Positions 14,198 to 53,137 of a DNA stretch of 64,000 bases are shown here, in pieces (positions within the stretch are counted from its first letter, which is position 1; each line of letters opens with the position of its first letter). The position numbers and the translations under genes were made by a program. The stretch covers positions 1 to 64,000 of the forward strand of contig NZ_FMXA01000008.1 in NCBI RefSeq assembly GCF_900103425.1, written 5' to 3'. Under the pieces are notes generated by a model, which saw only the letters and a program-made list of their open reading frames with translations, was not told the DNA's origin and did no database searches. The stretch comes from Dialister histaminiformans (GTDB taxonomy: Bacteria > Bacillota > Negativicutes > Veillonellales > Dialisteraceae).

Positions 14198-14430
14198 TAC
14201 ATAGCTAGGAAGGGAAGAAGCTATAGGATTCCTTACAGAGAGCAGCTGGCTGGTGTGAAGCTGCAGGAAGAATATAACGAGTCACCCCGGAGCAGGCATT
14301 AACAGTGCACGTATGGCGGTCGTTACCCGCTGGAGAGAGATTATGGTGTTTTATAATACCCATAATTATTTAGGTGGTACCGCGGAAGTCTTTTCGTCCT
14401 ATAGGGATGGAAAGGCCTTTTTTATTTTGA
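14198..14430 (+). promoter_or_regulatory. T-box riboswitch, valine specifier
   Basis: The leader contains the invariant T-box core TGGTACCGCGG (14375-14385) and a following terminator hairpin with a T run (about 14388-14425). In Stem I a GTC triplet at 14281-14283, followed by ACCCCGGAG, occupies the specifier position and reads Val, matching valS downstream. By T-box mechanism, uncharged tRNA-Val pairs with the specifier and the TGGT bulge, stabilises the antiterminator and allows valS transcription. Confidence 0.95.
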
Positions 14431-42842: not shown

Positions 42843-43987
42843 TGAAAAAGTTCACTGATTTTTCATGGAAAAAAGGCGGCTTATGGATAGTTTCCAGCCT
42901 TGTGGGAGCTATGGCCATAATCGGCCTTTTTCTCTTTACATTTTTTGACAGTCCGAAGGCTTTTTTACAGTTTCTGCATGATTATCAGATTATCAGAACC
43001 CGCTACTTCAGACCTGTAAGTGATGAAACTCTGTTTCAAGGGGCCGTTAAAGGGATGGCGTCATCTCTTGGGGACCCTTACTCCCTTTATCTCACTGGCG
43101 ATGTCTATAAAAGCTTTATGGAGCAGACCACGTCGGCTTTTGGTGGTGTGGGAATCATCATTGGCGAGGACAAGCAGGGAGATTTTTATATCCTTGCAGT
43201 ATTTAAAAAGGGCGCTGCCCATGATGCAGGAATTCAGCCGGGAGGGAAGCTGGTTGCCGTCGATGGAAAGAAGCTGCATGGCATGGAACCAATGTTGGCG
43301 GCTAACCTGGTTCGTGGTAAAGTGGGAACTGCAGTGACCCTGACGATAGAAGAAAACGGTAAGGTTAAGGACTATAAGATGCATCGGTCGGATGTGGTCC
43401 TTCCTACGGTGTCTGATCAGATGGTTTCCGGTGACATTGGATACATTCATATATACACATTTGCCACACATACAGGGGAAGAGTTTAAGGAAGCTCTCCG
43501 CGATGTAAAGGCTAAAGGAGCCAGAAAACTCATTATTGATGTGCGTATGAATCCCGGAGGATTGATTACTTCGGTAGTCGATGTGGCGGATCAGATTCTT
43601 ACCCGTGGCCCGGTGGTTAGTTACCAGGCCAAAAACGGGACGAAACAAACCTTTGACATTGACGGCATATCCAAACCTATGCCGATGGTCATCCTTATTG
43701 ACAGAAACAGTGCCAGTGCTTCAGAAATTCTGGCAGGTGCTGTTCAGGATAAGAAGGAAGGCATTGTCATGGGAGAAAAGAGCTTTGGGAAAGGGACCAT
43801 TCAGTCTGTGGAGGAATTATCTGATGGAACGGCACTGAAGATTTCCATAGCTCAGTATCTGACTGCCGGCGGACGGAAGATTGATAAGATCGGCATTAAA
43901 CCGGACGTTGCCGTACAGCAGACGGGAACACCTTTTGATATGAACAGTGATTCTGTGCTTCAGGAGGCTATCCGTAAACTTAAGTAA
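42842..43987 (+). CDS. C-terminal processing protease (S41, CtpA)
   Basis: A 381-residue membrane-anchored serine protease. It has one N-terminal membrane segment (about 14-35), a PDZ domain (about 95-175) and the S41 catalytic core (RNSASASEILAGAV with the active serine, and KSFGKGTIQ with the catalytic lysine). The FtsEX-M23-Ctp order is common in Bacillota, where the protease may turn over or mature wall hydrolases. That functional link is inferred from context. Confidence 0.94.
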   Translation: MKKFTDFSWKKGGLWIVSSLVGAMAIIGLFLFTFFDSPKAFLQFLHDYQIIRTRYFRPVSDETLFQGAVKGMASSLGDPYSLYLTGDVYKSFMEQTTSAFGGVGIIIGEDKQGDFYILAVFKKGAAHDAGIQPGGKLVAVDGKKLHGMEPMLAANLVRGKVGTAVTLTIEENGKVKDYKMHRSDVVLPTVSDQMVSGDIGYIHIYTFATHTGEEFKEALRDVKAKGARKLIIDVRMNPGGLITSVVDVADQILTRGPVVSYQAKNGTKQTFDIDGISKPMPMVILIDRNSASASEILAGAVQDKKEGIVMGEKSFGKGTIQSVEELSDGTALKISIAQYLTAGGRKIDKIGIKPDVAVQQTGTPFDMNSDSVLQEAIRKLK

Positions 43988-44004: not shown

Positions 44005-44049
44005 AAAACGATATGGTGGTCTGTTTAGGACATACCATATCGTTTTTTT
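44005..44049. terminator. Terminator after ctpA
   Basis: AAAACGATATGGT pairs with ACCATATCGTTTT, followed by further T. Confidence 0.93.
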
Positions 44050-44217
44050 CGTGGAAAAGAGAAGTCTGCCAGAATAAGAGCAGACAATCCCTATCAGAAC
44101 ATAAAGATGTACTTCGGGACCATAGATCCTGCAAATAAGTATATACATAAAAATGAACTTACGGTAGAGGTGCACCCGTAATGTGAATAAAACATGAATA
44201 TCCGTTTATTTTTATGG

Positions 44218-44246
44218 TTGCCACAGTCTTTTACTTTTGGTACAAT
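44218..44246 (+). promoter_or_regulatory. glmU promoter
   Basis: TTGCCA (44218-44223), a 17-bp spacer, TACAAT (44241-44246). Start of transcription would be near 44253, giving a leader of about 150 nt. Confidence 0.65.
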
Positions 44247-44255
44247 GTCAATGTA

Positions 44256-44356
44256 CGTTTCGAAGAGAAACGGAGATACAGACAGGAAAAACAGTATTTT
44301 TGACGGAGGAAGGAGCTGTACAAGGCGTAATCTGAGTCAAAAAGACTGTGTTTTTT
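44256..44356 (+). promoter_or_regulatory. Structured glmU leader with attenuator-like hairpin
   Basis: A CGTTTC/GAAACG hairpin (44256-44272) is followed by ACAGTATTTTTGAC (44291-44304) pairing 13 of 14 with GTCAAAAAGACTGT (44336-44349). The 31-nt purine-rich loop contains GGAGGAAGGAG, and TTTTTT follows at 44351-44356. The layout resembles a transcription attenuator, but I recognise no known ligand class. Confidence 0.45.
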
Positions 44357-44405
44357 ATTGGTCTTTATTACATTGAAAACCTTAAAAATGATGATGGGAG
44401 GACAT

Positions 44406-45782
44406 ATGGGAGAATTATCGGCCGTTGTCCTGGCAGCTGGACAGGGAACCAGAATGAAATCCAAATTGCCTAAAGTGCTTCATAAAGTATGTGGAGTGCC
44501 AATGGTTAATCAGGTAATCCGGATTATCAAGAACGCAGGCTGTACCCGGTGCATCGCGGTAACCGGATTCAAAGAAGAACTGGTACGTAAGTCACTGGGA
44601 GACTCTGTTTCTTTTGTTCACCAGACAGAACAGCTGGGGACTGGGCATGCAGTTATGCAGGCAATGCCATTACTGGAATCGGATGAAGACGGTTATGTTC
44701 TGGTTATCTGTGGAGATACACCACTTCTCAGGGCAGAGACAATACGCAATCTGATTGACGTTTGTATCCATAACAGAGCTTCGGCAACCGTATTGACAGC
44801 CCGACTGGATAACCCGTTTGGATATGGCAGAGTTATCCGTGATAAGGATGGGCACATGCAGCGCATTGTAGAGCAGAAGGATGGAACAGAAAGCGAACTG
44901 GCGGTTAATGAAATTAACACCGGGACCTACTGCTTCCATGTGGCTGACTTAGTGGATGCGCTTCATAAGATTGATAACCATAATGCTCAGCAGGAATATT
45001 ATCTTACGGATGTATTTGGTATCATGATCCGGGAAAACAAGCAGGTTATCCCGGTCGTTGCGGAAGATGCAGATGAAACTATGGGGGTAAATTCCAGAAG
45101 ACAGCTGGCAACTGCCAATAAGGTCCTTTATCTTCGCAAGGCAGAAGAACTGATGGACCAGGGAATCACCATTGTTTCTCCTGAAAATACATACATTGGA
45201 CAGGATGTCATGGTCGGACATGATACGACTATCCTGCCGGGGACCATCCTTTCCGGGAATACCAAGGTAGGGGAAGATTGTGTCATCGGACCGGATACCC
45301 AGCTGGATAATGTAACCTGCGGGAATGGAAATACGCTGAATCGTGTGTATGCTCATGATTGCACGATTGGAAATAACAATACCATGGGACCGTTTGTACA
45401 CCTTCGTCCGGATACAGATATCCATAATCACGTTAAGATCGGCAATTTTGTGGAAGTTAAGAATTCCGTAGTGGATGATGGAACCAAACTGCCGCATCTG
45501 ATTTACTGCGGTGATGCGGATCTGGGCAAAAAGGTAAACTTCGGCTGTGGTACGGTAACGGTTAATTTCGATGGTAAGAATAAACATCGAACCGTGGTAG
45601 AAGACCATGCATTTATCGGATGCAATACCAATCTGGTGGCTCCGGTTCATGTAGGAAAGAATGCGTTTACTGCTGCCGGCTCCACTATTACTGAGGATGT
45701 ACCGGATAACGCACTGGCCATTGCAAGACAGCGTCAGACAAATAAGATTAACTGGGTGACAAAAGACACCTATAAGGATTAA
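44406..45782 (+). CDS. glmU: Bifunctional GlmU (GlcN-1-P acetyltransferase / GlcNAc-1-P uridyltransferase)
   Basis: Makes UDP-GlcNAc for peptidoglycan and other envelope polymers. The N-terminal nucleotidyltransferase has LAAGQGTRMKSKLPKVLH; a linker leads to the C-terminal left-handed beta-helix of hexapeptide repeats with the acetyltransferase site (VNFDGKNKHRTVVEDHAFIG). It is 458 residues from ATG 44406, which has GGGAGG upstream; the longer open frame upstream has no site. prs follows after 48 nt, the usual order in Bacillota. Confidence 0.97.
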   Translation: MGELSAVVLAAGQGTRMKSKLPKVLHKVCGVPMVNQVIRIIKNAGCTRCIAVTGFKEELVRKSLGDSVSFVHQTEQLGTGHAVMQAMPLLESDEDGYVLVICGDTPLLRAETIRNLIDVCIHNRASATVLTARLDNPFGYGRVIRDKDGHMQRIVEQKDGTESELAVNEINTGTYCFHVADLVDALHKIDNHNAQQEYYLTDVFGIMIRENKQVIPVVAEDADETMGVNSRRQLATANKVLYLRKAEELMDQGITIVSPENTYIGQDVMVGHDTTILPGTILSGNTKVGEDCVIGPDTQLDNVTCGNGNTLNRVYAHDCTIGNNNTMGPFVHLRPDTDIHNHVKIGNFVEVKNSVVDDGTKLPHLIYCGDADLGKKVNFGCGTVTVNFDGKNKHRTVVEDHAFIGCNTNLVAPVHVGKNAFTAAGSTITEDVPDNALAIARQRQTNKINWVTKDTYKD

Positions 45783-45830: not shown

Positions 45831-46784
45831 ATGGACATGGAAGACACTTCAAAACTTAAGATTTTCACAGGTAACGCTCATCCTGCATTAGCACAGGAAA
45901 TCTGCGATTACATCGGCGTTCCGCTGGGAAAGGCTGTTTGCGGCCGTTTTAACAATGGTGAAATTCAGGTAATGGTTAACGAAAGTGTCCGCGGTAAGGA
46001 TGTATTTATTATCCAGCCAACCGGCGCGCCGGTTAATGATAACCTGATGGAACTGCTCATCATGGTTGATGCCATGAAGAGAGCATCCGCCCGTCATATC
46101 ACCGTTATCGTTCCATATTATGGTTATGCCCGTCAGGATCGTAAGACCCGCGGCAGAGAACCAATCAGTGCCAAGCTGGTAGCAGACCTTATGAGTACTG
46201 CCGGTGTTACCCGTGTAGTAACCATGGATCTTCATGCAGGCCAGATTCAGGGCTTCTTCGATGTTCCTGTAGATCACCTCATGTCTACTTCTATTCTGGC
46301 TAAGTACATTAAGTCCATGAAGCTGGAAAACCTGACCATTGTTTCTCCGGATCTTGGCGGGGTAACCCGTGCCAGAGAACTGGCTGACCGTCTGGGCGCA
46401 CCGATTGCCATTATTGAAAAGCGCCGTCCGGAACCAGGGGTAGCCAAGGTTATGAACATTATCGGTACGGTAAAGGACAGAAGCTGCGTCCTCGTTGATG
46501 ATATTGTCGACACAGCCGGTTCCCTCTGCGAAGGCGCTAAGGCACTGGATAAGGCGGGTGCTATGGGTGTTTACGCAGCCGTTTGCCATCCGGTTCTGAC
46601 CGATCCGGCAACTGAACGTGTAAAGAACTCCTGCCTCAAGCAGCTTATTGTAACCAATTCCCTTCCAATTGAAGATTACAAGAAACAGACCAAGCTTAAG
46701 GTTCTCTCTGTAGCACCGCTGCTCGGTGAAGCTATTATGCGTATTTTCCATGATGCTTCTGTAAGCTCTTTGTTTGATAAATAA
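45831..46784 (+). CDS. prs: Ribose-phosphate pyrophosphokinase
   Basis: Makes PRPP from ribose-5-phosphate and ATP, supplying PyrE and purine, His and Trp synthesis. The 317-residue protein shows IMVDAMKRASARHITVIVPY, the ATP loop YARQDRKTRGREPIS, and the PRPP-binding SCVLVDDIVDTAGSLCEGA. AAAGGAG lies upstream. Its stop shares one base with the pth start (TAATG). Confidence 0.97.
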   Translation: MDMEDTSKLKIFTGNAHPALAQEICDYIGVPLGKAVCGRFNNGEIQVMVNESVRGKDVFIIQPTGAPVNDNLMELLIMVDAMKRASARHITVIVPYYGYARQDRKTRGREPISAKLVADLMSTAGVTRVVTMDLHAGQIQGFFDVPVDHLMSTSILAKYIKSMKLENLTIVSPDLGGVTRARELADRLGAPIAIIEKRRPEPGVAKVMNIIGTVKDRSCVLVDDIVDTAGSLCEGAKALDKAGAMGVYAAVCHPVLTDPATERVKNSCLKQLIVTNSLPIEDYKKQTKLKVLSVAPLLGEAIMRIFHDASVSSLFDK

Positions 46785-47362
46785 TGAAACTTATTGCAGG
46801 ATTAGGAAATCCAGGAAAAGAATATGAACATACCCGTCATAATATGGGTTTTGACGTGGTAGATGAACTGGCTTCGCGCTGGCATGTTCTGAACTGGAAA
46901 GAGGCATTTAAGGCGGAAATAGCAACAGTGGTTGTCCATGGGGAAAAGGTCTGCCTTATGAAGCCACTGACCTATATGAATCTCAGCGGGGAAGCTGTTG
47001 GCGCTGCCGCCCGTTTTTACAAGATTGATGCAGAGGATATCTGGGTTATCTGTGATGATTTGGATCTTCCAGCCGGGCGGACAAGAATCAGGAAAAAAGG
47101 TTCAGCCGGTGGCCATAATGGGTTAAAATCCATCATTGCTCATCTGGGAACACAGAATTTTACAAGATTCCGTATCGGAGTGGGGCATCCTCAGGATGGC
47201 CATACCGTGGTGGACCATGTGCTTGGTAAACCATATGGTGAGGATATCGCCCGTATTGCGGAAGCAAAGAAACATACCGCTGATTCGGTGGAAGGAGCCC
47301 TTGAAATGGGCGTGGATAAGGCGATGAGTGCTTTTAATCCACATAAGGAAAGCCGGAAATAG
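46784..47362 (+). CDS. pth: Peptidyl-tRNA hydrolase
   Basis: Recycles tRNA from drop-off peptidyl-tRNA. The N terminus GLGNPGKEYEHTRHNMGFDVVD contains the catalytic histidine, MKPLTYMNLSGEAV the conserved asparagine, and DDLDLPAGRTRIRKKGSAGGHNGLKS the basic substrate region. It is 192 residues. glmU-prs-pth is a conserved run in Bacillota; mfd, which often follows, lies about 14 kb further on here. Confidence 0.97.
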   Translation: MKLIAGLGNPGKEYEHTRHNMGFDVVDELASRWHVLNWKEAFKAEIATVVVHGEKVCLMKPLTYMNLSGEAVGAAARFYKIDAEDIWVICDDLDLPAGRTRIRKKGSAGGHNGLKSIIAHLGTQNFTRFRIGVGHPQDGHTVVDHVLGKPYGEDIARIAEAKKHTADSVEGALEMGVDKAMSAFNPHKESRK

Positions 47363-52932: not shown

Positions 52933-52955
52933 GAGGGAGAAATAAAAATGGTTAA

Positions 52956-53137
52956 TTTCTCTTCAGGGCAAGGTGAAAATCCTTACCGGTGGTGATAGCC
53001 CACGAGCGCAAGCAGATTTGGTGCAATTCCAAAGCCGACAGTAATAAAACAGTATTGGTTTTTGAGTCTGGATGAAAGACAGAGAAGACATGTAAGATAG
53101 AGCCACGCCCTGAAAAGAAACAGGGGGTGGCTTTTTT
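52956..53137 (+). promoter_or_regulatory. FMN riboswitch (RFN element) with terminator
   Basis: The conserved RFN core is present: CTTCAGGGCAAGGTGAAAAT, then CCGGTGGTGATAGCCCACGAG, then GCAATTCCAAAGCCGACAGT and AGTCTGGATGAAAGA. P1 can form from TTCTCT (52956-52961) and AGAGAA near 53090. A terminator hairpin GCCACGCCC/GGGGGTGGC with TTTTTT follows at 53102-53137. FMN binding would favour the terminator and shut off ribDEBAH. The ribD ribosome binding site lies in the terminator 3' arm, so translation may be blocked as well. Confidence 0.96.

Follow-up and report, generated by a model that had tools for sequence, protein, structure and literature searches.

The product of glmU, an essential cell-wall precursor gene, synthesises the UDP-GlcNAc that goes into peptidoglycan and lipopolysaccharide. 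In many Firmicutes, the UDP-GlcNAc pathway is under RNA control by the glmS ribozyme (RF00234). The leader described here would likewise be an RNA control of UDP-GlcNAc synthesis, whereas its gene and its mechanism differ from those of the ribozyme. Among nine genomes of the family examined for the ribozyme, including both that carry the glmU leader element, none was positive (0/9), and two of three other genomes of the order were. The lack of the ribozyme and the presence of the glmU element need not be linked, because seven of the nine genomes without the ribozyme also lack the element.

As reported, the glmUS promoters of E. coli are controlled by NagC (PMC2806358). Similar to the present locus, this control lies upstream of glmU, but the available part of that report describes an activator that binds DNA at promoter boxes rather than a leader RNA (PMC2806358). 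In Listeria monocytogenes, the small RNA Rli73 lies immediately upstream of glmU-prs, and two suppressor mutants of a UDP-GlcNAc-related defect of a yvcK mutant have point mutations within this RNA, at 108 and 111 bases ahead of glmU. According to the available part of that report, its authors leave the precise effect open, and both suppressor strains carry second mutations (PMC8307235). Rli73 and our leader occupy the same place before the same gene pair, a likeness of position alone, and the leader position is therefore not unprecedented. The sequence-only reading had stated that no element in front of glmU was described in this group. Rfam agrees with that statement, and literature searches returned no report of a glmU leader in the Dialister group; however, Listeria has Rli73 upstream of glmU-prs.

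Candidates of the Gd4v (Guanidine-IV variant) riboswitch have also been reported in Dialister succinatiphilus, and in the available text they resemble our leader in having two hairpins, of which the 3' one is a terminator topped by a small hairpin (PMC9788692). In contrast, the inter-hairpin pseudoknot that defines Gd4v was not seen in the glmU leader, and the gene context reported for Gd4v there is transaminase, MATE and acetyltransferase genes, compared with glmU here (PMC9788692). The longest loop-loop complement in the glmU leader is 3 nt in both species compared, not above shuffles, and this identity was rejected. T-box leaders also consist of a promoter, a structured leader and a terminator before the gene, but the glmU leader has no Rfam T-box match. 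In a search of this leader against Rfam 15, no family matched at gathering score, and a relaxed threshold gave chance matches only.

The locus lies in the window, that is, the whole 64,000-nt stretch of Dialister histaminiformans DNA analysed here. We compared it within a set of 12 genomes of the family, including its own (G000) and one other of the same genus (G001), whose GlmU is 77% identical. The features are as follows.

44218 to 44246, plus strand: glmU promoter TTGCCA-N17-TACAAT with TG before the -10 box, from a consensus scan; in G001, TTGCGA-N17-TACAATGTCAATGTA
44256 to 44272, plus strand: 5' hairpin 1 of 6 bp with a 5-nt loop, from the fold; arms 44256-44261 with 44267-44272
44291 to 44304, plus strand: 5' arm of the terminator-like stem, from the fold; 14 of 15 bases (44290-44304) identical in G001
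44305 to 44335, plus strand: purine-rich loop of 31 nt, from the sequence, with GGAGGAAGGAG at 44305-44315; 10 of 31 columns identical in G001
44336 to 44349, plus strand: 3' arm of the terminator-like stem, from the fold; 11 of 14 bases identical in G001, with the pair preserved as G-U in two changed columns
44351 to 44356, plus strand: run of six T, from the sequence, the expected RNA 3' end if transcription terminates; seven T in G001
44396 to 44402, plus strand: likely ribosome-binding site of glmU, GGGAGGA, from the sequence
44406 to 45782, plus strand: glmU, 458 aa, the first gene after the leader, from the open reading frame and homology
45831 to 46784, plus strand: open reading frame that we take to be prs-like, 48 nt downstream of glmU
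46784 to 47362, plus strand: open reading frame, presumably pth-like, abutting prs

The promoter, the 6-bp hairpin, the arms pairing at 13 of 14 positions and the 31-nt purine-rich loop with GGAGGAAGGAG, all claimed in the sequence-only reading, were found again in the sequence and the fold. The sole mismatch of the main stem is A44296/G44344. The stem had also been placed directly before six T; the six T are present, but a single G (44350) separates them from the stem. From the end of the T-run to the start of glmU (44406) there are 49 bases. The promoter agrees with the consensus at 10 of 12 positions. It is supported by being conserved in G001 and not by the consensus scan, which overall is at chance level (8 promoter-like sites against 6.5 expected). 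Judged from the -10 box, the transcript would start at about 44253, with hairpin 1 at its 5' end. The gene upstream, which we take from its protein family to be ctpA-like, ends at 43987. A 13-bp inverted repeat (44005-44017 and 44034-44046) and a T-run of its own come after it, so glmU looks like a separate transcription unit. Downstream, glmU, prs and pth look co-transcribed.

The leader structure before glmU is real. The leader (44253-44360) folds at -29.0 kcal/mol, compared with -17.7 (sd 2.6) for shuffles, which corresponds to a z of -4.4, and not one of the 200 shuffles reached this energy. When the leader was shuffled with its dinucleotides preserved, 1 of 1000 versions contained a 14-position stem with no more than one mismatch ahead of a T-run. 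The G001 leader folds with a z of -2.9. The glmU stem is thus well supported. Its presence by itself says little, because terminator-like hairpins are common upstream of genes within one genome: in the part of the own genome that was sampled, 41 genes are preceded by 130 nt or more of non-coding sequence, and 14 of them have a hairpin with a T-run there. What singles out the glmU leader is its conservation.

This conservation is seen in G001, which shares the promoter block, the stem, the loop GGAGG and a run of seven T. Identity between the two genomes amounts to 25/29 in the arms and 11/13 in the T-run and adjoining bases, and to 10/31 in the loop. At the place of hairpin 1, G001 has a hairpin of other sequence, which is weaker and appears in the best fold at some lengths only. 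Ten of the 13 stem pairs are unchanged in G001, two are turned into G-U by one-sided changes, and one is lost; no compensatory change occurs among the 13, two sequences being too few for a covariation test. The share of paired cells is 96% and falls to 27-65% once the partners are displaced by 1-3 columns. The covariance model built with the G001 stem also finds that stem on the minus strand (E 0.009). Symmetry of an A-tract and a U-tract is a usual feature of intrinsic terminators, and the minus-strand match points to such symmetry here.

To place this conservation on a scale, 378 kb of the own genome (the 64-kb window included) was compared with 400 kb of G001. The local alignment upstream of glmU ranked 10th among 33 ortholog pairs, with a score of 43, compared with a mean of 11.5 for shuffled sequences. 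The top-ranking upstream regions include those that Rfam identifies as FMN and T-box leaders and 6S RNA, and 15 of the 33 pairs score near the shuffled level. We also compared the 35 ortholog pairs with leaders of at least 110 nt, counting a hairpin only if 40 nt or more separated it from the preceding gene in each genome. Four of these pairs have a terminator-like leader hairpin in both genomes, namely the valS T-box, 6S RNA, a tRNA and glmU, and among the four only glmU is without a known RNA in Rfam. Collectively, the two-genome comparison indicates that the leader structure is selectively kept.

To define the distribution of the element, the region upstream of glmU was surveyed in all 61 of 61 genomes of the order; in a survey of named loci, 77 of 80 were scanned, and three were dropped for too little upstream sequence. 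A hairpin with a T-run within 100 nt of glmU is present in G000 and G001 and in 0 of the 10 other family genomes, which have different and mostly short glmU leaders. In both same-genus genomes, the gene upstream of glmU is ctpA-like; as read in the rest of the family, other genes take its place. A covariance model (R1) built from the two leader sequences gave strong matches in G000 and G001 only. In wider searches, 9 of 61 genomes of the order matched at E <= 1, 4 of 300 in the class sample at E <= 0.05, and 1 of 398 in the phylum sample at E <= 0.001, namely G000; the phylum sample may lack Listeria, the very distant host of Rli73. With more than 40 genomes, the R1 search used stricter filters, with which weak matches can be lost. 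Apart from both leaders and the minus-strand match in G001, there were eight loci with weak matches, six of which (all but L126 and L127) were inspected. These six (L170, L122, L123, L124, L125 and L128) are other hairpins or coding stretches near unrelated genes, so neither a regulon nor a wider family emerged. A search for glmU in viral contigs yielded no relatives. As far as searched, the element appears to be restricted to the genus. The covariance-model check proposed earlier therefore came out in two parts: the structure is conserved in the same-genus genome, but the two sequences hold no compensatory change and the other 10 family genomes lack the structure. Since one sister species keeps the structure and the searches of the wider family did not turn it up, it is probably a small expression control specific to the genus.

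Other hairpins were seen upstream of glmU in more distant genomes. At locus L013 (G011), a strong hairpin (ATGTCTGCCG / CGGCAGACAT) without a T-run lies about 30-60 nt upstream of glmU, between promoter and gene. In two Elusimicrobia loci (L036 and L046), a hairpin of 41 nt (-15.3 kcal/mol) that has a T-run lies about 79-82 nt upstream of glmU and 83-84 nt past the preceding open reading frame; it is another possible glmU leader terminator.

As a candidate, the glmU leader falls into a known class: it is most likely a terminator that is leaky or conditional. More specifically, we put at about an even chance the reading that the glmU-prs-pth leader is a genus-specific, intrinsic-terminator-like attenuator that is likely leaky and open to modulation. 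RNA polymerase would start at about 44253 and make the short 5' hairpin, followed by the stem with 14-nt arms and U6. If the stem closes, transcription would end at about 44351-44357 and give a leader RNA of about 100 nt; if it does not close in time, the polymerase would read through into glmU. The order of promoter, stem, U-tract and first gene is found in the window and likewise in G001. Between the T-run and glmU, no convincing promoter was seen on reading the sequence of either genome, and the scan lists none in G000; transcription from the conserved promoter must therefore cross the stem. Partial termination at 44351-44357 is the simplest mechanism. With a loop of 31 nt and a stem made up largely of A-U pairs, closure would be expected to be slow and easily hindered, which makes the site likely to be leaky and modulable, and a factor binding the loop with its GGAGG could keep the terminator open. 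By a d'Aubenton-Carafa-type score the terminator is weak, with +4 or -33 for the G000 leader depending on the stem end chosen and -12 for G001. With the same formula, three ordinary terminators of these genomes scored +13 to +15 and the valS T-box terminator -9; the glmU terminator is thus nearer to the latter. What was observed is the structure, where it lies and that two species keep it; from these we infer the transcription start, termination, read-through and any trigger, and with them conditional control of glmU by the leader. If the attenuator reading holds, control of the pathway would have moved to the last enzyme in one genus and, taken together with Listeria Rli73, leader RNAs before glmU-prs would seem to have arisen more than once.

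Regarding the conditional terminator proposed in the sequence-only reading, the terminator-like leader is there and is kept in G001, but conditionality met with no antiterminator common to both species in the fold comparison of G000 and G001, no compensatory changes, and no counterpart in 10 family genomes. In G000, a weak alternative pairing occupies the 5' arm while the transcript is 48-60 nt long, and it has no counterpart in G001. With a loop so poorly conserved (10/31) apart from GGAGG, its proposed role as a binding site is not borne out. Such drift makes it less likely that the loop contains a small-molecule aptamer; the candidates left are a simple factor that recognises purines, the ribosome, or nothing. 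As for the ribosome, the GGAGG loop could be a landing site for 30S, spare subunits holding the loop open and blocking terminator closure, which we consider very unlikely. Complementarity of the loop to the anti-Shine-Dalgarno sequence extends over 6 nt in G000, reached by 20% of shuffles, and 7 nt in G001, reached by 1.6%, and these frequencies lend the idea weak support. No ATG, GTG or TTG follows the loop GGAGG at normal spacing in G000 or G001. The products of glmU, prs and pth serve cell-wall precursor synthesis, PRPP synthesis and peptidyl-tRNA rescue, respectively. If the 30S idea were true, the three genes would be transcribed in proportion to translation capacity.

Several other explanations of the same structure must be weighed against the attenuator. 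A leaky terminator without any trigger, setting a fixed low level of glmU-prs-pth from a strong promoter, is possible though rather doubtful. It would account for a stem and T-run that are conserved while the loop is not, and it agrees with the lack of an antiterminator common to both species, of a conserved sensing module and of any above-chance Rfam match at the relaxed threshold; however, it leaves unexplained why GGAGG is kept within a drifting loop and why the upstream hairpin is kept in place with other sequence. In both species, that hairpin is placed at the inferred start of the transcript, and the main stem is long, as would suit an element of mRNA stability or processing; the 5' hairpins would then shield the glmU mRNA or serve as RNase cleavage sites, and the T-run would be incidental. 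The T-run follows right after the stem in both species (six and seven T), as in a terminator, and such an element is unlikely. The leader might also be a free-standing small RNA gene, from its promoter at 44218 to its terminator at 44356, acting in trans through the purine-rich loop and leaving glmU to be expressed by leakage. It is indeed a full promoter-to-terminator unit of about 100 nt, and Rli73 is, in the available part of its report, a described small RNA right upstream of glmU-prs (PMC8307235), but glmU has no convincing separate promoter downstream and the loop through which the RNA would act is poorly conserved (10/31), so we regard this as quite unlikely.

The arms form an inverted repeat of 18 nt, 89% complementary, and an 11-nt copy of an arm lies in the promoter spacer (44222-44232), as might be expected of a DNA operator whose repressor would form a roadblock just 3' of the promoter. 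The spacer copy is absent from G001, however, two of the three changed pairs there keep RNA pairing (as G-U) while breaking DNA symmetry, and a spacing of 31 nt is long for a dimer site; an operator is highly improbable. Finally, a chance hairpin without function might have been kept through short divergence time, in line with the comparison of two genomes only and the lack of compensatory changes. Against this, arms and T-run are kept here though the loop drifted, and the near-shuffled scores of 15 of the 33 upstream pairs imply that non-coding DNA has often diverged beyond alignment between these genomes, so this explanation is scarcely credible.

Two further identities were tried and rejected. 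For a leader peptide, the ATG open reading frame at 44251 has 41 codons in G000 and 4 in G001, and the TTG open reading frames (11 and 22 codons) have no upstream ribosome-binding site. For a CsrA-controlled leader, CsrA was found in 0 of 1 genomes, the own genome, with 3 of 14 controls positive.

Apart from the glmU leader, Rfam reports two elements at gathering score in the 64-kb window: a T-box leader at 14198-14404, before a gene that we take to be valS-like, and an FMN riboswitch at 52955-53088. A long hairpin with a T-run, present in G000 and not in G001, ends about 22 nt before 29899, ahead of an open reading frame that is presumably cold-shock-protein-like. Between the ctpA terminator and the glmU promoter, which lie about 20 nt apart in G001, the window has about 160 nt (44054-44217) that match nothing in the other 11 relatives searched. 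Within this segment, a 16-nt repeat occurs twice at a distance of 46 nt, and TTACGG/CCGTAA forms an inverted repeat.
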